Below, piece by piece: positions 22,593 to 34,997 of a DNA stretch of 64,000 bases; positions within the stretch are counted from its first letter, which is position 1; every line of letters starts with the position of its first letter. Source of the stretch: Candidatus Accumulibacter necessarius (GTDB taxonomy: Bacteria; Pseudomonadota; Gammaproteobacteria; Burkholderiales; Rhodocyclaceae). The stretch lies in assembly GCA_017302435.1 (NCBI GenBank), contig JAFLDL010000015.1, forward strand, positions 1 to 64,000. Direction: 5' to 3'. The notes under the pieces are model-generated. The model saw only the letters and a list, made by a program, of their open reading frames with translations, made no database searches and had not been told where the DNA came from. A program made the translations under genes and the position numbers.

Positions 22593-23855
22593 TCAGGAAA
22601 AAGCTGCTCTCAGGAGATAGAAAAGGATGGCTCCCAGGAGGGCCCCGACGGGGACGGTGATAAACCACGAAGCGATGATGCCGCCGACCACCCGCAGGTC
22701 GAGGGCGCCAATACCGCGAGCGATACCGACACCCATCACCGCACCGACTGCGATGTGGGTAGTGGACACCGGCAGCCCCAAGCCGGAAGACGCCACGGTC
22801 ACGAACGCGGCAGCGACGGTTGCACAATAGGCGCGGGTTGGAGTCAGCTCGGTGATGCCGTGGCCCAGGGTAGCCATCACCTTGTAACCGTAGGTCGCCA
22901 AGCCAGCAACAATGCCTAAACTGCCGATTAACAATATGAACGGGGTGATTGCCGAACTGGCGGATACCTCCCTCGTCACGATGATCTGAATGACCACGGC
23001 CATCGGACCAATGCCATTGGCCACCTCGTTCGAACCGTGCGCAAAAGCCATCGCCGCGCCGGTGAACACCATCTGCGGCATGAACAACCGCTCGACGCTG
23101 GCGTATTGGGAGGCTCTGTCGGCGTAATCATCGAGCGTGATGCGGTTCATCATCAGTCTAACGGCAACGCCCAGGAGGACGCCAATCGCGACCGCGAGGG
23201 TCTGACCCTCAATGCCGCCAAGACTGATGTTTACATGTTTGAGACCCTTGCTGATGGTGATCAGCGAGACGATCCAGCCGACCAGGAAGGCATACATCGG
23301 GCCCCAGTATCGCGCCTTGGCGATGGGATCCACGGTATTGAAAATCAGCTTGCGGATACTCATGGTCAGCAGCAAGGCGACGGCACCGCCCAGAATCGGC
23401 GAGAGGAACCAGCTGGCGACGATTTCGCCCATCATATCCCACTGCACCGCATCAATGCCCAGTGCCGCGACACCCGCTCCGCATACGGCGCCAACGATCG
23501 TATGGCTGGTGGCCACTGGCCACCCGCGCATGCTGGCCAGCATCAACCAGGTGCCTGCTGCCAGCAAAGCACCAATCATGGCAAAGACCAGGAGTTGCGG
23601 CACCGGCTCGAAGAGCCTGCCATCGATGATGCCGGTCGAGATCGTGTCCGCCACTTCTCCACCGGCCAGATAGGCCCCGCAAAACTCCATTATTGCCGCC
23701 AGGACGAGCGCGTGCCTGATGTTTATCGCCCCCGAACCAACCGAGGTGCCCATGGCACTGGCAACGCCGTTGGCACCGATTCCCCAGGTCATATAGAGGC
23801 CGCCGGCAACGGCTAGGACATAGAAAAGGGTTTGATGCTGCTCGATGATTTCCAT
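22593..23855 (-). CDS. pit: Inorganic phosphate transporter, PiT/PHO4 family (420 aa)
   Basis: A polytopic membrane protein with the duplicated PiT halves. The second half has the canonical signature AFAHGSNEVANGIGP and the PVSTTHI motif; the first has GIGANGVASAMGTSVGS, where the usual GANDVAN aspartate is replaced by Gly. The GTSVGSG pattern groups it with PHO-4/PiT proteins, many of them sodium:phosphate symporters, and it differs from the 337-residue Pit at 33984. It imports phosphate across the inner membrane. The DUF47 gene lies 109 bp upstream in the same direction. Confidence 0.92.
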   Translation of the reverse strand: MEIIEQHQTLFYVLAVAGGLYMTWGIGANGVASAMGTSVGSGAINIRHALVLAAIMEFCGAYLAGGEVADTISTGIIDGRLFEPVPQLLVFAMIGALLAAGTWLMLASMRGWPVATSHTIVGAVCGAGVAALGIDAVQWDMMGEIVASWFLSPILGGAVALLLTMSIRKLIFNTVDPIAKARYWGPMYAFLVGWIVSLITISKGLKHVNISLGGIEGQTLAVAIGVLLGVAVRLMMNRITLDDYADRASQYASVERLFMPQMVFTGAAMAFAHGSNEVANGIGPMAVVIQIIVTREVSASSAITPFILLIGSLGIVAGLATYGYKVMATLGHGITELTPTRAYCATVAAAFVTVASSGLGLPVSTTHIAVGAVMGVGIARGIGALDLRVVGGIIASWFITVPVGALLGAILFYLLRAAFS

Positions 23856-24973: not shown

Positions 24974-25459
24974 CTACCCCCCTCCAGCCAGGCGGAAGGC
25001 CGGCGGGATGAAGACCAGAACCAGGATCGCCAGGGTTTCGATGATCCCCAAAGTCATCAGGTAGTTGCCAAATCCCTTGCCGGTTTCGGCCATCGCGTCC
25101 GAAGCTGCAGCACCGATGACTCCCTGGTACCAAGCCGACACGCCCATGCCCAGGCCACCAAAAATCCCCGCCCCGAGCATGCCGCCCCAGTTGATCGCCT
25201 GATGAGCAGCAAGTGAGGCATCCAGCGCGGTGTTGATCCAGCCCATGAGAATCATGCCGTAGATCGTTTGCGACATGGGTGCCCCGACAAAAGCGAACAG
25301 CACAAACGGCGCCGCTTTGTCCTGGGCGTAGCATTTCTTCCAGGCTCCAACGGCAGCCGGGCCGGCTGCGCCGACGCCCAGGGAGGACCCGGCCGCAGCC
25401 AGCCCTACCGCCGCCGCTGCCCCGAAACGCCCCAGGCTGACCATCACATCTATATCCAA
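24974..25459 (-). CDS. ntpK: V-type ATP synthase subunit K (rotor ring)
   Basis: A 161-residue protein with four membrane helices formed by a duplicated hairpin. Aligned by eye with Enterococcus hirae NtpK, residues Ser63-Gln64 (in PMSQ), Tyr67 (in IYG), Gln112 (in YQG) and Glu141 (in IIETLAIL) fall at the positions of the sodium ligands Thr64, Gln65, Tyr68, Gln110 and Glu139. The start is TTG at 25459: GGAG sits 6 nt upstream, whereas the nearest ATG (25444) is too far from it. It is the last gene of the V-ATPase operon, 64 bp after subunit I. Confidence 0.92.
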   Translation of the reverse strand: MDIDVMVSLGRFGAAAAVGLAAAGSSLGVGAAGPAAVGAWKKCYAQDKAAPFVLFAFVGAPMSQTIYGMILMGWINTALDASLAAHQAINWGGMLGAGIFGGLGMGVSAWYQGVIGAAASDAMAETGKGFGNYLMTLGIIETLAILVLVFIPPAFRLAGGG

Positions 25460-25523
25460 CTCTTTCTCCTCTCGTTGCGTATGGTAATTGTGCTCTCGAA
25501 TCAGGAAACCGGATCTGCTCTGG

Positions 25524-27284
25524 TCAGACCACAGGCCGCGACTTGTGCTGCCATGGTCGGTAGGAGATGCCACTCCACTGAAGACCGAGATGGCTGGCAA
25601 ATTCAAGTGTATTCAACCGTATACCGTGCACCATCACGCCCATCAGGGCAAGAACGATGTTCACTGTGTGCGCCAGGAAAAGCAACAGCGCGGCCAGCAA
25701 GCCACTAAGCCAGCCATCGAACAGGGGTGCCAGCATGAGGTTGAAGGTCGAGGCGATGGCGAAGCTGGCGGTGCCGACGGCGTAAAGACGGATGTAGGAA
25801 ATCACGTCCACAAAGCTGCCCACGAGGTTCAGCGGCAGCATCACGTGGTTGAACCATTCGTCCTTTAGGCTCTTGCGCGGGGTCATGAACAGCACAATGA
25901 GCACAACGCCGGCGCCGAAAACCCAGGTCATGATCGATGGAAACGGCAGGTTGAGGACGACGGCACGTGCGCTGAAAAACATGAACCAGACCACGCACAG
26001 CCAGCCGATCTGGGCTAGAGCCTGGGGCGTTCGAATCAGATTAACGATGTTCCAGACGTGGGCAATTGACAGGTGGATGGCAGCGATCCAGAAGCAGAGG
26101 TCCTTGATGTGTTCCTCGTCACCCAGCCAGGTCATCTTCAGCGCGGCGAGCGGTGCGGGCAGGTCGGGGATTCCGAAATAGGTACCGGTCAGAACGCCCC
26201 AGACCATCGTGGCGATGCTGGTGATCTTGAGCAAGGTGAACACGTGGGTCGCCACTTGCGGAAACTTCCTCTGTGCCCATAGCGTCAGCCCGAGGAAGAT
26301 CGCGCCGTAGCCGGCATCGCCGACGAGCATCGCGAAAAAGAGGCTGAAGAAAAGCAGAAACCACAGACTGACATCGATTTCCCGGTAGCCGGGCAGAATG
26401 CCGATCAGATCGAACACGGCCTCGATGGGCTTTAGCCACGCCGGATTGCGAATCAGCGTGGGAACCACATCGTCTTCTGCCGGCTCGTCGATGAGCAGTC
26501 CCCATCCGTTCGTTCGCGCGGCCTGGCGAAGGCGGTCGACGTCGTCCGTGGGGCAAAAGCCCTGGAGGTATGCGACGCGCGCCGTTACAGTAACCATGCC
26601 GGCGCGGACCTCGGCCATCTGCAAGGCCTCCGCGGCCTCGGCTCGCAGTCGAGCCACCGCGGCATAGTCGCCGCCGAACTGCGCAACCTGATCGGCGACC
26701 TGGGCTTGTACGGCCTCAAGTTCGGCGACGCGGCTTTCGATATCGGCCAGTGACGTGGTAGGCAGGCGGATTTCCTGCGCGGCAACCTCGGGGTTTTCGC
26801 CGCGCGTGACCAAGGCGAAGAACACCGCCGTCCTGGTGCGAAGCGTCTCCACATACACTGCCTGGTCAGGGATCGCCGGAAAACTTTTGGGGGACGCATG
26901 GAAAAGCCGGATGAAGACGCCGTGCCCGGCCAGCATCGCGACAGCTTGTGGAGAGAAAGAGCCGAAGGGTTGGACGCGTTTCAATTCCTGACGCAAGCGC
27001 TCCAGTTCTTCACTACTTTCCCGACGCTGATGGATCAGCCGCGACAACTCATCGACAACTTCGCCCGGAGATAGCCCGGAAGGGGGCTGCTGTGGCAGCT
27101 TGGGCAGGATCTCACAAGCACGCCGGACGTGTTCGAGATGGCGGCGCGCAGCCTCGATATCCTCGTGCTCGGCCCGCCGGTCAAAGATGAGGTGCATAAC
27201 GCCGAGCTCGCGCAGCGACTGCAAGGCGGAATCCCGACCAGTATCCAGACACAGCACGGTCACCTTTTGCATCGGCGTGATCAT
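25524..27284 (-). CDS. ntpI: V-type ATP synthase subunit I (membrane stator, a-type subunit)
   Basis: A 586-residue protein with a cytoplasmic N-terminal half containing coiled coils (about residues 40-110 and 180-235) and a membrane half with about seven helices starting near residue 320. It carries the ion half-channels and the stator arm. The segments LLFFSLFFAMLVGDAGYGA and IRLYAVG, with the essential arginine of the a-type subunit in the latter region, are typical. It follows subunit D by 44 bp and precedes subunit K. Confidence 0.94.
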   Translation of the reverse strand: MITPMQKVTVLCLDTGRDSALQSLRELGVMHLIFDRRAEHEDIEAARRHLEHVRRACEILPKLPQQPPSGLSPGEVVDELSRLIHQRRESSEELERLRQELKRVQPFGSFSPQAVAMLAGHGVFIRLFHASPKSFPAIPDQAVYVETLRTRTAVFFALVTRGENPEVAAQEIRLPTTSLADIESRVAELEAVQAQVADQVAQFGGDYAAVARLRAEAAEALQMAEVRAGMVTVTARVAYLQGFCPTDDVDRLRQAARTNGWGLLIDEPAEDDVVPTLIRNPAWLKPIEAVFDLIGILPGYREIDVSLWFLLFFSLFFAMLVGDAGYGAIFLGLTLWAQRKFPQVATHVFTLLKITSIATMVWGVLTGTYFGIPDLPAPLAALKMTWLGDEEHIKDLCFWIAAIHLSIAHVWNIVNLIRTPQALAQIGWLCVVWFMFFSARAVVLNLPFPSIMTWVFGAGVVLIVLFMTPRKSLKDEWFNHVMLPLNLVGSFVDVISYIRLYAVGTASFAIASTFNLMLAPLFDGWLSGLLAALLLFLAHTVNIVLALMGVMVHGIRLNTLEFASHLGLQWSGISYRPWQHKSRPVV

Positions 27285-27328
27285 GATAGATTGCCTATCC
27301 CGGTAAGTGGCATCTGAATTCCCTTGCT

Positions 27329-27934
27329 CTAGGTGGCGGATTCTTGTTCGAGGTTCTTTGCTTTGGCCATCTTGGAACGTGCCACGCCGGCGGTCATCTG
27401 GTCGCCGAGAAAAATGCGGATCACCCGAATGTGCTCCCGCGCTTCCGGTATCTTCACCTTTTCAAAGAGATTCACGCGCTGGTTGGTGGTACGCAACTCA
27501 GCGGCGAGCTGGCGCATCTGCTCTTCAAGCACCTGCAGCTCCAGGCGCCGGCGTACTCGCCGCTCCAGCATGTCAACGCCGTCGTCCAGCCACGCTGGCG
27601 TGGCCAACAGATCGGGAACCTGGCGCTCAAAATCGATCCCCTCAAGCAGCGGGATAGCCACACCGGCGATATTTCCCTGTCCAAGGCGTATCTTGCGTAC
27701 GCTTAGCCAGTTCCGCCATTCGACAGGTTCGGCGAACAGGCGCACCCACTTGGCAAGCTCGGCCTGCTCATGCACCTCGGCGTTACGTTCCGCCTCAAGC
27801 TGGCTTTCGAGCTGGCGAACCTCGAGTTGCAGTTGCTGTTTCTTCAATTGCAGCGTCGGCAGGTAGCGCTGGAAACGTTTGAGCGCTTCGCGCTGAGCCT
27901 TCAGTTCGTTCTTGGTGTGTTTGATGTTAGCCAT
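27329..27934 (-). CDS. ntpD: V-type ATP synthase subunit D (central stalk)
   Basis: A 201-residue coiled-coil protein (long helices at about residues 5-60 and 120-175) starting MANIKHTKNELKAQREALKRF, typical of subunit D. It is the rotating shaft that connects the A/B catalytic head with the K ring. AAGG lies about 6 nt before the ATG. It lies 33 bp after subunit B in the same transcript. Confidence 0.93.
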   Translation of the reverse strand: MANIKHTKNELKAQREALKRFQRYLPTLQLKKQQLQLEVRQLESQLEAERNAEVHEQAELAKWVRLFAEPVEWRNWLSVRKIRLGQGNIAGVAIPLLEGIDFERQVPDLLATPAWLDDGVDMLERRVRRRLELQVLEEQMRQLAAELRTTNQRVNLFEKVKIPEAREHIRVIRIFLGDQMTAGVARSKMAKAKNLEQESAT

Positions 27935-27967
27935 GGGTCGCCTTCGCCGTGGTCGCGTCGACTCAGG

Positions 27968-29263
27968 TCAGTGGTTTGGCCAGAACCGGTGAGTGAGTTT
28001 CGACGCGATTCCGGTCTCCGCGGGGTCGAAACTGTCTGCAAGAATCTGCCAGCAAAGGTCCAGTGCCTGTTCCAGCGGGATATTCACCTTGAGGTCCATC
28101 AGCTCGTTCTCGAAGCGTTGGCCGTACTTGAGCAACTTGCTGTCCCAAGGGCTCATGCGGAAGCCCATCGACTGTTTCTCGAGCGTCTCCATATACGAGG
28201 CATAGAGCTGGATCATGGTGTTCATGATCGTGCGGTGGTCTTCGCGCGTCTTGTCATTGACCAGTTGCTTGAGGCGGCTCAGTGAACCGAAAGGCTCGAT
28301 GCGACCATTACGCAGATAGAACTGTCCCTCGGTGATGTAGCCGGTGTTGTCCGGCACCGGGTGGGTCACGTCGTCGCCAGGCATGGTGGTCACGGCGAGG
28401 ATCGTGATCGAGCCGGCGGTGTCGAAGTCGACCGCCTTCTCGTAGCGGGCGGCGAGTTGGGAGTAGAGATCGCCCGGGTAGCCGCGATTCGAAGGGATCT
28501 GCTCCATGGTGATGGCGACCTCCTTCATGGCATCGGCGAAGTTGGTCATGTCGGTCAGCAGAACCAGGACACGCTGATTCTGGAGTGCAAAGCGCTCGGC
28601 TACGGCCAGCGCGATATCCGGCACCAACAGGCATTCCACTACCGGGTCGGAGGCCGTGTGGATAAACAGCACCGATCGTGACAGAGCGCCGTTTTCCTCG
28701 AGCAGGTCGCGGAAGTACAGGTAGTCGTCGTGTTTCAGGCCCATGCCGCCGAGAATGATCACGTCCACTTCTGCTTGCAGCGCGATCCTCGCCAACAGCG
28801 GATTGTACGGTTCCCCCGCGACCGAGAAGATCGGCAGTTTCTGTGACTCGACCAAGGTGTTGAAAACATCGATCATCGGGATGCCGGTGCGCACCATGTG
28901 CCGAGGGATGATCCGCTTGGCGGGATTGACCGACGGTCCACCAATGTCGATGAGGTTTTCGCTTATGCGGGGACCCTTGTCGCGTGCCTGGCCGCTGCCG
29001 TTGAACACCCGGCCGAGCAGCGACTGCGAAAACGGCACCTGCATCGTGTGCCCGAGAAAACGAATCTCGGCGTCGGTGGCAATACCACGCCCGCCAGCGA
29101 ATACCTGCAGGTCCACGCGGCCGCCCTCGAGCCGGATCACCTGCGCGAGTGAAGTGCCCTGCCGTGAGCTGACCTGGGCCAGTTCACGGTAGCCGACGCC
29201 TGTCGCCTGGACGGTGATGACGTTGCCGGCGATCCGCTCTATGCCGTGATAGACCTTATGCAT
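27968..29263 (-). CDS. ntpB: V-type ATP synthase subunit B
   Basis: A 431-residue non-catalytic head subunit. The P-loop is absent, as expected; the sequence shows SGSGQ-type residues near [11 protein letters not shown], the [20 protein letters not shown] segment and the [21 protein letters not shown] region typical of B subunits. Its ATG lies inside the last codons of subunit A (8-bp overlap, 29256-29263), so the two head subunits are translationally coupled in equal amounts. The frame upstream to 29305 is inside the A gene and is rejected. Confidence 0.95.
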
Positions 29264-30989
29264 AGTCCGACACCTCCGCGAGCATCTGCTCAATCTGCTG
29301 TTCAATCTGCCGGAATTCCGTGGACTGCTGCTCCAGCCGGTTCCAGTCCCTGGTCGTCTGTGTCAGGCGCTGGAAGAAACGGCGTGCGCCATCCTTGTCG
29401 TCGAAGCTCATCTTGCATCTGAGCATCCGATGAATGCGGTCGAACACGTAGCGCTGCCGCTCGGCGCTGCTGGCACCATCGACGTCGTGGTAGGCGTCCT
29501 GCTGCAAATAGACCGCGTCGAGGTACTCGCTCTTGAGAAAGACAACAAAATCGTCAATTGAAGTGCCTTCCTCACCGACTACTTTCATCATTTGCTTGAC
29601 ATCGTTGCCAGCGTGCAGCATCTCGCGGGCGAAGCTCACTTGGTCTGCCGAGACTACGCCCGGATACTGACTCCAACTGTCGAGCGGATCAATGGCCGGG
29701 AAACGCCGCTGGTCCGAGCGCTCCCGGGACAGCCCGTGAAAGGCTCCCACGACCTTCAGCGTGCTCTGTGTGACGGGTTCCTCGAAGTTCCCGCCGGCGG
29801 GACTCACCGTCCCGCCGATGGTCACAGAGCCCAAGCTGCCGTCCTTCAGTCGGACGATACCTCCGCGCTCGTAGAAGGCAGCAATTACCGATTCGAGGTA
29901 GGCTGGGAAGGCCTCCTCGCCGGGAATCTCCTCGAGGCGACCGGACATCTCGCGCAGCGCCTGTGCCCAACGTGAAGTGGAATCCGCCAGCAACAGCACA
30001 TTCAGGCCCATCTGGCGGTAATACTCGGCGATCGTCACCGCCGTGTACACTGACGCCTCGCGAGCAGCAACCGGCATGGAACTGGTATTGCAGATGATCA
30101 GGGTACGCTCCATCAGGCTCTTGCCGGTACGAGGGTCGGTCAGTTGGGGAAACTCGCGCAGGGTCTCGACGACCTCGCCCGCCCGCTCACCGCAAGCTGC
30201 GATGATCACGATGTCCACGTCGGCGTAGCGACTTGTAATCTGCTGCAGCACCGTCTTGCCGGCACCAAAGGGCCCGGGGATACAGTAGGTACCGCCTCGT
30301 GCCACCGGATAGAAGGTGTCAACAATGCGTACCTTGGTCACCAGGGGCTCACTCGGTCGCAGCCTCTCGGCATAAGCCCGGATCGGGATCTTTACCGGCC
30401 AGCGTTGCATCAGAGTCACCTGGACCGGTTCGTCGTCCGCGTCACGCAGCGTGGCAATCGGCTCGCCGACAGTATAGTCCCCGGGCCCTACGATCCGCTC
30501 CACGGTCAATGCGCCTTTCAGCTTGAACGGCACCATGATGCGGTGCTGAAAGATGCCCTCGGGTACCGTGCCGAGCGTCTCGCCAGCGGTCACGCGGTCG
30601 CCCGCTACAGCCGTGGGCGTGAACGCCCAACTTCGGTCTCGGGGCAACGCATCGAGATAGACCCCGCGCTGCAGGAAGAAGCCACACTGCTCAGCCAGTT
30701 GCGGGAGCGGGTTCTGGAGACCGTCGAAGATTTGTGTCAGAAGCCCAGGGCCAAGTTCGACCGCCAGCAACTCGCCGGTAAACTCGACCCGGTCGCCTTC
30801 CCGCAGCCCGGTGGTATCCTCGAAAACCTGGAGGTCCGCATAGGTTCCGCGAATGCGGATCACTTCGGACTTGAGCCGACGGCTTCCCGTCACCGCGTAG
30901 GCCACCTCATTCTGGACCACCGCTTTGGTAAACTCGACAGTCAGCAGGTTGCCACTGACGCCGATGATTGTTCCGCTTTTTTCGTTCAT
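29256..30989 (-). CDS. ntpA: V-type ATP synthase subunit A (catalytic)
   Basis: A 577-residue catalytic subunit. The Walker A GPFGAGKT is the V/A-type form, followed by the ERAGEV and the long non-homologous insertion region near residues 110-190 that marks V-type rather than F-type ATPases. The arginine-finger-facing region and the [10 protein letters not shown] and [14 protein letters not shown] motifs are present. It lies 7 bp after the DUF2764 gene and overlaps subunit B by 8 bp. Confidence 0.97.
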
Positions 30990-30996
30990 GTGTCAC

Positions 30997-31584
30997 TCAT
31001 TTCGCTGGCGCAGGCACGACGCATCCGGACTTCCGGAACGCTCCCAACCCCACAGTGTCCTGCTGTTTCGTCATCGCCTCGGTGAAGTCTTCGACCTTGC
31101 GCTGCCCCGCGGCCTCGGTCAGCCCGGCCCAGCGCTCGGCGATGCGCAGCTTGACCGCAAAAGCCAGGACCGTACCCAGGCCGAAGGGATCGGCCAGCGC
31201 CAGTTCGTCCGCGATACGCCAGCGGCCACGGTCGAGAGCCTGCTCGCGCTCCAGGGGCGTGTGTTGAGCCAGGGCGTCGGTAACCACTTGCGCCAGACCG
31301 ACATCAAATCCCGCGTGATCCCGCTGAAAGGCTTGGGAGTCGACGCCCAGACGTGCCGCTCGAAAGCGCGCCACGGCGTTGCGCAGTTGCGTCTCGCGGG
31401 CGGCCCAGGCCGCCGCAAAGGTGTTTCCCGCTATTGAGCGCCCCTGCATCACAGCCTCCAGAATCGCTAGGTGCTCGGTCTTGAGGACGCCGACGCAGCG
31501 CGACTGGAGTTCACGCGAAGAAAAAGGCGGCTGATCACCGAAGAACAACATCGGCAGGCTCGCGACCAGATAGTGGTAGGACAT
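30997..31584 (-). CDS. DUF2764 family protein, V-ATPase operon-associated
   Basis: A 195-residue soluble protein beginning MSYHYLVASLPMLFFG, typical of DUF2764, a family found between atpE and atpA in chlamydial and spirochaetal V-ATPase operons. Its role is not established; by position it may replace the missing subunit C (the peripheral connector to the ring). GAGG is about 6 nt before the ATG. It is followed 7 bp later by subunit A and preceded by subunit E at 18 bp. Confidence 0.85.
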   Translation of the reverse strand: MSYHYLVASLPMLFFGDQPPFSSRELQSRCVGVLKTEHLAILEAVMQGRSIAGNTFAAAWAARETQLRNAVARFRAARLGVDSQAFQRDHAGFDVGLAQVVTDALAQHTPLEREQALDRGRWRIADELALADPFGLGTVLAFAVKLRIAERWAGLTEAAGQRKVEDFTEAMTKQQDTVGLGAFRKSGCVVPAPAK

Positions 31585-31602
31585 GGTCCGCCTCGCGCTG
31601 CG

Positions 31603-32241
31603 TCAGGTCTTGTCGCCGGTACTCGCCGCACGCGCGGCGCGATGGACAATCTCCGCCAATTGGGGGCGCACGAAACTGGCCAGCGCCTCGGCGATGGCCG
31701 ACTTGGTAAAATCGTGGTAAACGCGATCGTTTTCAAGTGTGACGCGGAAACCCTTGCGCACACCGTGGTCGATATTGATGTCAACTCCACTGACGAGGTG
31801 TCGCCGGTACTGGTCGGCGAAAAAGCTAACGATCTCTGCTTGGTCGCGCTCGCCAATGATGAACTCGATACGGCTTTCCGTGCCATTCTTCGCGGCATAG
31901 GCTTCGGCCATCTTGACCATCATTCGCTTGAGGGTGTCGGGGTCGAGAGCCTGGTCAGTCGAGGCGCTTACGATGTCCTGGATGATGTTCTCGATGGCCT
32001 GCCCGACGCCAATCAGCAGATCTCTCGCCGCCTGCTCAAGCGTACGCGTGCTACGCTCAACATACACTTCGGCGTCCTTCTCGGCTTTTTCCAGCCTTGC
32101 CCTTGCTGCGGCCTCGGCCTCGTTCATGAGGGCGGCAGCGCGATCCTGCGCTTGCGAAACAATCCGCTCGGCTTCTTTCGTTCCGCTTTCGATCGTTTCC
32201 TTGTTGATCTGGTCTATCAAGTGTTGCAGCTCTATAGCCAT
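31603..32241 (-). CDS. ntpE: V-type ATP synthase subunit E (peripheral stalk)
   Basis: A 212-residue protein with a long N-terminal helix (about residues 1-85, rich in Ala, Glu, Lys and Arg) and a small globular C-terminal half, as in the E subunits of peripheral stalks. It is the first gene of the V-ATPase operon. The ATG at 32241 was chosen because AGGA lies 6 nt upstream and the family N-terminus MAIELQHLIDQI begins there; the frame continues to 32319 without a better start. Confidence 0.9.
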   Translation of the reverse strand: MAIELQHLIDQINKETIESGTKEAERIVSQAQDRAAALMNEAEAAARARLEKAEKDAEVYVERSTRTLEQAARDLLIGVGQAIENIIQDIVSASTDQALDPDTLKRMMVKMAEAYAAKNGTESRIEFIIGERDQAEIVSFFADQYRRHLVSGVDINIDHGVRKGFRVTLENDRVYHDFTKSAIAEALASFVRPQLAEIVHRAARAASTGDKT

Positions 32242-32660
32242 AAGATGTCCTACCCACATGTTGATGGCAAATCCGCCCGCATTTGACTCAAGTATGGCCG
32301 ACATCTGCCCAACCGTCAAAGGCCAGCCTCCTGATCCTCGCCTGCCCCCAGGCAGTGATGACTAAAGCCTGCCGCGGAATCAAGGCCAAACCGTGCCGAA
32401 CGATATTGACAACTCGAGTCCTGCGCCAGAGGCGAAAGACGAGATCAAACAACGCGCCGCCAACGGGCAGACTATAGGGTCATTGCAGGCGGTAGTTGTA
32501 CGTGACGGAACTACTCCAGGCGTCAAGACCTTGTGGTAGCATCATCGGCGATTATCAAGGCAGCGAAGCACTTGCCCTCCATGTGATCGGCAGTGCAGAT
32601 CACCATCACTATCGGTAGCGCGTAGGCACGCGCACCAAATTCTCACCGGGAAAGCTCGCC
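32242..32660. other. Divergent intergenic region between the V-ATPase operon and uspA
   Basis: About 420 nt without a supported gene. On the minus strand TATAGT (near 32473-32478) is a possible -10 for the V-ATPase operon, without a clear -35. No FNR-type TTGAT-N4-ATCAA palindrome was found, although uspA genes are often controlled that way. Both promoters must lie here. Confidence 0.5.
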
Positions 32661-33241: not shown

Positions 33242-33877
33242 TCAGGCATTCTGCAGCAAAATCTCTTCGAGCGTCTGAGCCGATTTCTTGCTGGCCCGCA
33301 GAACCTTCTCCTGCAGCGCATAGAACTGCCGCATGCGCATCGCCCGCAAGGCTGCCGCGTCATCGCCCTCAGCGTCGAACAAAGCCTTGATCGCCTTGTA
33401 CATCACCGCAACCGACTTCTCTTCGATGCGTTCGATTTCGAGGCACAGATTGACCGTCTCCTGATTGCGCTGCCGTTCCTTCAGCGAGGCAATGGCCCGC
33501 GTCAGTCGACTGCAGGCGTCAACGGTCATCGACGCCAGTTCGTGCGACTCCTTGCTCGCCTCGGTCACATTGTAAATGCTGACCGCCTGTGCGACATCCT
33601 GCACCGCGTTCATCACGCGGTCGATGTCCAGGGTCAGCGCGTAGACCTGGTCACGATTGAGCGGCGTGACGAAGGACTTGTGCAGCATCGTCATCAGGTC
33701 GTTCTTGATCTGGTCCGAGCTGGCCTCGTTCATGTTGATTTCCTCGATCAGCGCCGCCACGTCCTGCTTGCTGACCCCCAGACTGCTGACCAGGCGCAGC
33801 ATGGCATTGGCGCCGGCCAGTACGCGCTCGCTGTGTGCCGCGAGCAACTCAAAAAACTCGGACCTCTTCGGTAACAT
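33242..33877 (-). CDS. DUF47 PhoU-like protein, downstream copy
   Basis: A 211-residue all-helical protein starting MLPKRSEFFELLAAHSERVL. It is a close relative of the 35011 protein, sharing the KRSEFFELLAAHSE start, the FVTPLNRDQV segment (TPINRDQI in the other) and a REFYALQEKVL-like end. DUF47 proteins are predicted accessory regulators of Pit transporters; here one lies on each side of the same pit gene. It is the last gene of the operon before a strong terminator. Confidence 0.9.
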   Translation of the reverse strand: MLPKRSEFFELLAAHSERVLAGANAMLRLVSSLGVSKQDVAALIEEINMNEASSDQIKNDLMTMLHKSFVTPLNRDQVYALTLDIDRVMNAVQDVAQAVSIYNVTEASKESHELASMTVDACSRLTRAIASLKERQRNQETVNLCLEIERIEEKSVAVMYKAIKALFDAEGDDAAALRAMRMRQFYALQEKVLRASKKSAQTLEEILLQNA

Positions 33878-33983
33878 GGGTAACTTCCTTTATTGACTGT
33901 AGTGATGACCATTGACTGATTCTGGTGGCGCGCTTCAACGAACGCCCCCATTGCCGGGGCGTCCGTTCGGCCAGCGCCTCGGC

Positions 33984-34997
33984 TTACAGGAACTTGGTAC
34001 CGATATACCAGAAGATCGCAGCGATCAGGCCCGAGGCCGGAATCGTCAGCACCCAGGCGACCAGCAAGTTCGCGGTGATCGCCCAGCGCACTGCCTTGAC
34101 GTCGGTGGCCGCGCCGACGCCGATGATCGCGCCGGTGATGGTATGCGTCGTCGACACCGGAATGCCACCCAGCGTCGCCAACCCCAGCGTGATTGCTCCG
34201 CCCATCGAGGCACACGAACCGCTGATCGCATTGAGCTTGGTGATCTTGGTCCCCATCGTCTTGACGATTCGCCAGCCACCGAGGTAGGTTCCCCAGGCAA
34301 TCGCGAAGTAGCACGAGTAGATCACCCAGGTGGGCAGCGTCGCGACGTCCTTTGTCGCCACGCCGGCAGTGATCATCAGCAGCCAGATGATGCCGATCGT
34401 CTTTTGCGCGTCGTTGCCGCCGTGGCCCAGGCTGTACGCGGCCGCAGCGAACAACTGCCCGCCCTTGAAGAACTTCCCGGCCTGATACGGCGAGGTGCCG
34501 CGGAAGATCCAGGCGACCAGCACCATCAGCAAGCCACCGATGATCACCCCGACCAGCGGCGAAATGATGATGAACGCGAGGATCTTGCCAAAACCCTCCC
34601 AGACGATCGGCGCCCCCGAACCGGCCTTGGCCACCGTCGCTCCGACCAGCCCACCGACCAGCGCGTGCGAGGACGACGAAGGAATGCCGTAGTACCAGGT
34701 GATGATGTTCCAGGCCAAGGCGCCGATCAAGGCCCCGAAGATCACGTAGTAATCGACGAAGCTCGGGTCTACCGTCCCCTTGCCAATCGTCGCCGCCACC
34801 TTGAGCTGAAACACCCAGAGGGCGGCAAAGTTGAAGAACGCGGCGAACAACACCGCCTGTTTCGGGGTCAGGGCACCGGTCGCGACGATTGTCGAGATGG
34901 AGTTCGCGCCATCGTGAAACCCGTTCATGAAGTCGAACGCCAGCGCAATTGCTATCAGCAGCGCCAACGTCCAGATGCTCATATTTAGGCCTTCCAT
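33984..34997 (-). CDS. pit: Inorganic phosphate transporter, Pit family (337 aa)
   Basis: A shorter Pit with about ten membrane helices. Both signature halves are intact: FDFMNGFHDGANSIST at the N-terminus and the SLGHGGNDAQKTIG segment in the second half, with PVSTTHTITGA. This class includes low-affinity Pit proteins often coupled to protons and metal-phosphate. The start may be ATG 34997 (GAGAGG 9 nt upstream) or ATG 34982 (GGAAGG 7 nt upstream). It is flanked by DUF47 genes in one operon, 13 bp and 106 bp away. Confidence 0.92.
   Translation of the reverse strand: MEGLNMSIWTLALLIAIALAFDFMNGFHDGANSISTIVATGALTPKQAVLFAAFFNFAALWVFQLKVAATIGKGTVDPSFVDYYVIFGALIGALAWNIITWYYGIPSSSSHALVGGLVGATVAKAGSGAPIVWEGFGKILAFIIISPLVGVIIGGLLMVLVAWIFRGTSPYQAGKFFKGGQLFAAAAYSLGHGGNDAQKTIGIIWLLMITAGVATKDVATLPTWVIYSCYFAIAWGTYLGGWRIVKTMGTKITKLNAISGSCASMGGAITLGLATLGGIPVSTTHTITGAIIGVGAATDVKAVRWAITANLLVAWVLTIPASGLIAAIFWYIGTKFL

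Follow-up and report, generated by a model that had tools for sequence, protein, structure and literature searches.

In the rotor subunit NtpK of the V-type ATPase (V-ATPase) of Enterococcus hirae, Tyr68 presumably has a role at the ion site. The Na+ ligands of this subunit are Glu139, Gln110, Thr64, Gln65, and the carbonyl of Leu61, and a complete set of such ligands serves as a rule for predicting Na+ transport, as set out in portions of PMC2359735. The work of the E. hirae enzyme is Na+-coupled and reversible, according to PMC12018189. Here, we describe a V-ATPase cassette of the betaproteobacterium Candidatus Accumulibacter necessarius, found in a window of 64,000 nucleotides (positions 1 to 64,000 of contig JAFLDL010000015.1, our C7, in the 88-contig, 4.56-Mb genome G000). 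The cassette consists of seven genes in the order E, DUF2764, A, B, D, I, and K on the − strand, from 24974 to 32241. The locus is a bacterial V-type ATPase of the branch found in spirochaetes, chlamydiae, and the Planctomycetes–Verrucomicrobia–Chlamydiae (PVC) group, and we consider it likely, on sequence evidence, that the enzyme is an ATP-driven Na+ pump that was acquired horizontally.

The rotor subunit K (24974..25459, −) is a four-helix proteolipid of 161 residues with a TTG start preceded by an AGGAG site, and it scores 178.3 bits against the PRK06649 family (cut-off 127). Residues 63, 64, 67, 112, and 141 are S, Q, Y, Q, and E. When a profile built from 51 K sequences was searched against the PDB, the first of its 42 matches was E. 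hirae NtpK (2bl2_A, 62 bits, E 4.3e-16), ahead of the top-scoring H+ proteolipid (E 7.6e-8). The profile alignment to 2bl2_A pairs P61 with P62, S63 with T64, Q64 with Q65, Y67 with Y68, Q112 with Q110, and E141 with E139. In this alignment, the ligand set of Ser63, Gln64, Gln112, and Glu141, plus Tyr67, is complete. The residues of 36qu_g, a c subunit from a citrus H+ V-ATPase, at the same five positions are Val, Leu, Tyr, Ile, and Glu. An earlier note, made by eye from the sequence, had assigned these five K residues to the E. hirae ligand positions, an assignment that would fall if Gln64 or Gln112 lay off the ion site. The profile alignment puts all five on ligand positions, both glutamines included, and the ORF starts and the translated 161-residue K show that the coordinates and residue numbers of the note are exact. 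The relation to NtpK is visible by profile only, since a single-sequence phmmer search of K against the PDB returned eight matches up to E 10, with 2bl2 not among them. The predicted structure of K, an ion-free model of a single subunit, has the four-helix rotor fold, which it shares with 2bl2 at 21–22% identity. Structural comparison with Na+ and H+ rotors, which the note had proposed as a check, thus supports the shared fold and does not discriminate between the two ions, the H+ rotor matches being equally good.

Conservation of Gln64, Gln112, and Glu141 in close relatives, the other check that had been proposed, was found in all 80 of the relatives taken in from 104 confirmed ones. These relatives were fetched by scanning for DNA patterns that included SQTIY and SA..QG, so that part of the motif is kept by construction. 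With the window and one further Accumulibacter copy added, Ser/Thr63, Gln64, Tyr67, Gln112, and Glu141 are present in 82 of 82 rows. The positions that are independent of retrieval can be counted separately, as follows. Gln112 and Glu141 are kept in all 62 K sequences with the pattern of transmembrane helix 2 (TM2) alone, and Ser/Thr63, Gln64, and Tyr67 in all four with the TM3 pattern alone; 13 sequences that fit both patterns were counted for Glu141 only, and the one K whose sequence as read fits neither keeps all five. A hidden Markov model pick from 398 genomes of the phylum gave five full-length K proteins from other genomes, and the four that were read (all but L057) have PSSQ..YG, QG, and E. 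Among the 51 aligned K sequences, 31 are less than 45% identical to that of the window. In these, an average position shows the window residue in 28% of the sequences, and each ligand position shows it in 30 or 31 of the 31; one S-to-T change and one gap account for the exceptions. The ligand set is therefore under selection. Because it is general in the branch, it marks the sodium-type site as a property of the whole branch, not of this bacterium in particular.

The complete, conserved ligand set makes sodium pumping, as the earlier note had it, the best sequence-based prediction for this enzyme, although it is not proof of Na+ use. The gene content, the rotor fold, the ligand set, the foreign affinity, and the differing sites within the genus are observed; beyond these, we infer the ion specificity, the direction of work, and the physiological role as follows. 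Each K subunit would bind one Na+ between Glu141, Gln112, Ser63, and Gln64, with Tyr67 holding Glu141 in place. ATP hydrolysis by A and B would drive a rotor made up of D, the DUF2764 socket, and the K ring, which would turn against subunit I. The cell would thereby spend ATP, which in Accumulibacter would come partly from polyphosphate, on a sodium motive force, and the V-ATPase would work alongside an F-type ATPase of the kind that the relatives have.

It is possible, although we doubt it, that the V-ATPase instead pumps protons (or hydronium) and that the polar residues reflect only the structure typical of the branch. The motif is common to all the relatives taken in, whatever their habitat, the K structure matches H+ rotors just as well, and the Thermus K retains part of the ligand set. 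Indeed, the available text of PMC2359735 describes some Na+ ligands as persisting in H+ enzymes; however, the sets that persist there are partial, and the set in K is complete. Moreover, the plant (citrus) H+ c subunit has lost three of the polar side chains. The ring might also switch between ions, carrying Na+ when this is plentiful and the pH is neutral or alkaline, and H+ where Na+ is scarce or the pH low. Such use of either ion is seen for some Na+ rotors. The carboxylate of Glu141 can be protonated and no sequence feature speaks against a dual mode, to which we give only a slim chance next to the Na+ pump.

The second part of our proposal is that the cassette is foreign to its host. Only one of 399 sampled genomes of the order, and one of 398 of the phylum, has the K family over its curated cut-off, and in both samples that genome is the window's own; within the genus, the cassette occurs in 4 of 28 genomes. 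Because the K family is so rare in order, phylum, and genus, vertical inheritance in betaproteobacteria is unlikely. The predicted Na+ coupling is indeed unusual in this order, as the earlier note had supposed for the group. Table 1 of PMC2359735 (2007), in the part of the source available, lists alpha-, gamma-, and deltaproteobacteria with V-ATPases and no betaproteobacteria. K is 98% and 97% identical in Candidatus Accumulibacter aalborgensis and an Accumulibacter metagenome-assembled genome (MAG). Across three congeneric loci, its identity is 96–98%; no subunit is better conserved in two of these loci, and in the third only B is.

A tree of concatenated A and B (FastTree, midpoint-rooted) was built from 58 of the 82 rows; the other 24, in which A or B is missing or partial, were dropped, among them all seven Fibrobacterota loci. 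All four Accumulibacter copies group together in a single clade (support 1.0). This clade is nested with nine MAGs that are Kiritimatiellae, Lentisphaerae, PVC, or unnamed, four of them labelled only ‘uncultured bacterium’; a Gaiellales-labelled MAG and a Spirochaetales MAG fall outside the nested group. The 7.3-kb cassette thus appears to have been acquired horizontally. Since all seven of their loci were left out of the tree, the Fibrobacterota may be the donor. In these loci (L064–L067, L069, L071, and L073), K is 57–61% identical to that of the window and I adjoins K, but A, B, and D are all absent from the flank examined (up to 10 kb on each side). The Fibrobacterota I–K pair is a split V-ATPase operon. 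Near the pair in L067 lie, among others, genes for a secretion ATPase (T2SSE) and for a RibD-like protein.

The copies within the genus lie at different sites. When the window DNA is compared with that of the other carriers, the match is confined to about 24979–32308 within the flanks examined. The four carriers have the cassette at three sites, as follows. One is common to G014 and G016 (15.7 kb at 93%). A second, on the same contig as L060, is that of G004, where the cassette has as its neighbors a CorC-like protein and another that carries NirB-type nitrite reductase domains. The third is in the window, where the cassette sits within the arrangement Pit1-DUF47...Usp-DUF47-Pit2. Six Pit loci of relatives were fetched. 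In five (G020, G043, G010, G004, and G013), only about 90–260 bp separate the DNA matches that border the cassette site, and the sixth, that of G016, has at the site a Usp like that of the window and no cassette. The closeness to phosphate transport is therefore a property of one insertion, since the Pit loci of relatives are without the cassette and the other carriers have it elsewhere. No convincing target-site repeats were found at the cassette ends, where there are three 9-mers only, and the guanine–cytosine content gives no sign of recent origin (0.607 in the cassette versus 0.617 in the window).

NCBIfam V-type models match six of the seven proteins, with A, B, D, and K passing the curated cut-offs and E and I falling short. 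Subunit E (31603..32241, −) scores 133.9 bits with NF002424, under the cut-off of 241. Its ORF is open to 32319, and the start was set at the ATG with first base 32241, aligned with L041; the protein is 70–83% identical in three Accumulibacter loci. The catalytic subunit A (29256..30989, −; NF003220, 777.6 bits, cut-off 470) has the P-loop GPFGAGKT at residue 239. In subunit B (27968..29263, −; NF002555, 746.6 bits, cut-off 431), the ORF is open to 29305 and the family match begins at Met15. Subunit D, the central shaft (27329..27934, −), passes NF002565 with 234.5 bits (cut-off 189). Subunit I, the stator with the ion half-channels (25524..27284, −), reaches 405.6 bits with NF004429, under the cut-off of 799. 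Its two C-terminal Arg motifs, SYIRLYAVG and VHGIRLN, presumably have the role assigned to the C-terminal arginines of this subunit. The DUF2764 protein (30997..31584, −; PF10962, over the Pfam cut-off) lies between E and A, as it does in PVC relatives such as L062, L063, and L068, and it occurs in the V-ATPase operons of this branch. The best structural matches of its predicted fold are V-ATPase C/d-type chains, DUF2764 being little over half their length, and the protein is probably a short version of subunit C/d, the rotor socket.

The genome of the window has no match to PF00119 (Fo-a); its sole PF00137 match is K, with no F-type c, and its four PF00006 matches are V-A, V-B, FliI, and Rho, so that neither an F-type alpha nor an F-type beta is among them. 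The genome is rated 100% complete, and these absences would fit a V-ATPase that has replaced the F-type enzyme as the sole ATP synthase of the cell. However, PF00119 is present in all 40 relatives searched, and the gap extends to a neighbor. In G016, the atp operon comes after mnmG-rsmG-parA-parB, and MnmG is found in 26 of the 28 genus genomes, being missing in that of the window and in a 72%-complete one. A 16-kb DNA query over the G016 block, with 40 of 182 candidates scored, gave matches only for the far-end gene beyond mnmG, at two places (72% and 68%). This pattern fits one lost contig. Because mnmG is also missing, an assembly gap is suggested as the simplest account of the F-type absence; the listed completeness of 100% leaves an artefact unproven, although a marker-based score can miss such gaps. 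We consequently rejected the V-ATPase as an ATP maker for want of an F-type enzyme, and a role as sole synthase has next to no probability.

The transporter nearer to the cassette, Pit1 (22593-23855, −), matches PF01384 and resembles the Thermotoga PiT 6l85 (E 7.1e-67). Both of its signature aspartates are replaced, with GAND becoming GANG (Gly) and HGSND becoming HGSNE (Glu). In the same signatures of human PiT2, D28 and D506 are critical for phosphate transport, according to excerpts of PMC3126765. No paper turned up in a literature search on where the Thermotoga PiT binds sodium. Near-full-length Pit1 is present in 24 of the 28 genus genomes; 19 keep both aspartates and five share the change of the window. 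These five form one clade (support 0.993, inner branches weak), with a ratio of nonsynonymous to synonymous substitution rates of 0.13–0.15 for five pairs among four sequences, excluding the long-branched G002. Perhaps the changed Pit1 carries phosphate without coupling or has been put to another use. Among the four cassette carriers, it occurs only in the genome of the window; G004, G014, and G016 keep both aspartates. A functional tie between cassette and Pit1 is weakened because only one carrier has the changed form. The first signature of Pit2 retains GFHD. In all six relatives read (L174–L179), a second, diverged DUF47 copy, about 45–56% identical to that of the window, adjoins the Pit2-DUF47 unit (33242-34997, −, in the window); the Pit/DUF47 module has been repeatedly duplicated in this polyphosphate accumulator. 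A functional Pit/V-ATPase unit was considered and rejected, given that the cassette lies elsewhere in three other carriers and that the Pit loci of relatives are cassette-free. With only one of the four carriers having the cassette beside Pit genes, the evidence does not support a tie between phosphate uptake and the sodium bioenergetics that the earlier note had suggested.

The decarboxylase at 340-1545, cited in the same suggestion as sodium-type, is indeed an OAD_beta protein. It barely passes the sodium-pump decarboxylase model TIGR01109 (191.4 versus 190.6 bits), and its match to a malonate carboxybiotin decarboxylase model is under the cut-off. It lies 23 kb from the V-ATPase, next to a polyhydroxybutyrate regulator and a short-chain dehydrogenase; it is plausibly a sodium pump subunit, separate from the V-ATPase. 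Elsewhere in the genus, ten second F-type c subunits were read. Those of G004 and G011 combine Glu in the Gln32 position with Glu-Ser and Tyr, which would make a sodium-type set by the rule of PMC2359735, as far as the available part gives it; the other eight have Met at the Gln32 position. Because of the G004 and G011 subunits, sodium-type rotary ATPases seem not to be wholly foreign to Accumulibacter. In detail, L011–L016, L018, and L019 pair Met at the Gln32 position with ESLAIY as the TM2 motif, and L021 and L022 have EGRAV/ESTAIY. The alternate F-ATPase thus appears to have two ion-site types inside one genus.

In models of enhanced phosphorus removal, the anaerobic acetate uptake of Accumulibacter is driven by a proton gradient. 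If a sodium-type ATPase is present in some species only, dependence on salt and pH would differ at the species level. It is tempting to go further, to a speculative picture that we regard as quite improbable, in which a sodium circuit powers the anaerobic phase of some Accumulibacter lineages. The Na+ V-ATPase cassette would be mobile, having come from a PVC-type anaerobe and since passed among lineages, and with polyphosphate ATP it would build the sodium gradient behind acetate uptake. In the species of the window, the Pit beside the cassette, having lost both coupling aspartates, would release phosphate without spending that gradient. A literature search for a V-ATPase or sodium gradient in Accumulibacter gave no paper titled on the subject, a weak negative since most subscription papers were outside its scope. 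The terms co-occur in unrelated places in the available part of PMC6593406. Na+-pumping V-type ATPase genes are reported from alkaline aquifer metagenomes in a section of PMC8547479, which is not used as support here.

The kind of enzyme is already known, and its membership here is by horizontal transfer; the cassette adds a betaproteobacterial case to the V-ATPases spread in this way. The Na+ V-ATPase of E. hirae (NtpK, 2bl2) is alike in the four-helix K, the five aligned side chains (with Ser for Thr in the window), and the fold. It differs from the window operon, in which DUF2764 replaces the full-length C and there is no visible space for either F or G. The Kiritimatiellae and Lentisphaerae V-ATPases (L063, L068, and L074) have the same gene order, E-DUF2764-A-B-D-I-K, with identities to the window of 75–81% for A, 82–87% for B, and 64–72% for K. 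They are neighboring lineages in the tree, although the host phylum differs. The gammaproteobacterial V-ATPases of Marinobacterium and Methylobacter also keep the K ligand set, but their A lies beyond K, their K identity is just 27–35%, and they are on a distant branch. Finally, the second F-type enzyme of Accumulibacter, which we take to be the N-ATPase (the alternate Na+-type F1Fo), resembles the V-ATPase as a second kind of rotary ATPase in the genus, with a Na+-type c subunit in G004 and G011; unlike the enzyme of the window, it is F-type, with a single-hairpin c.

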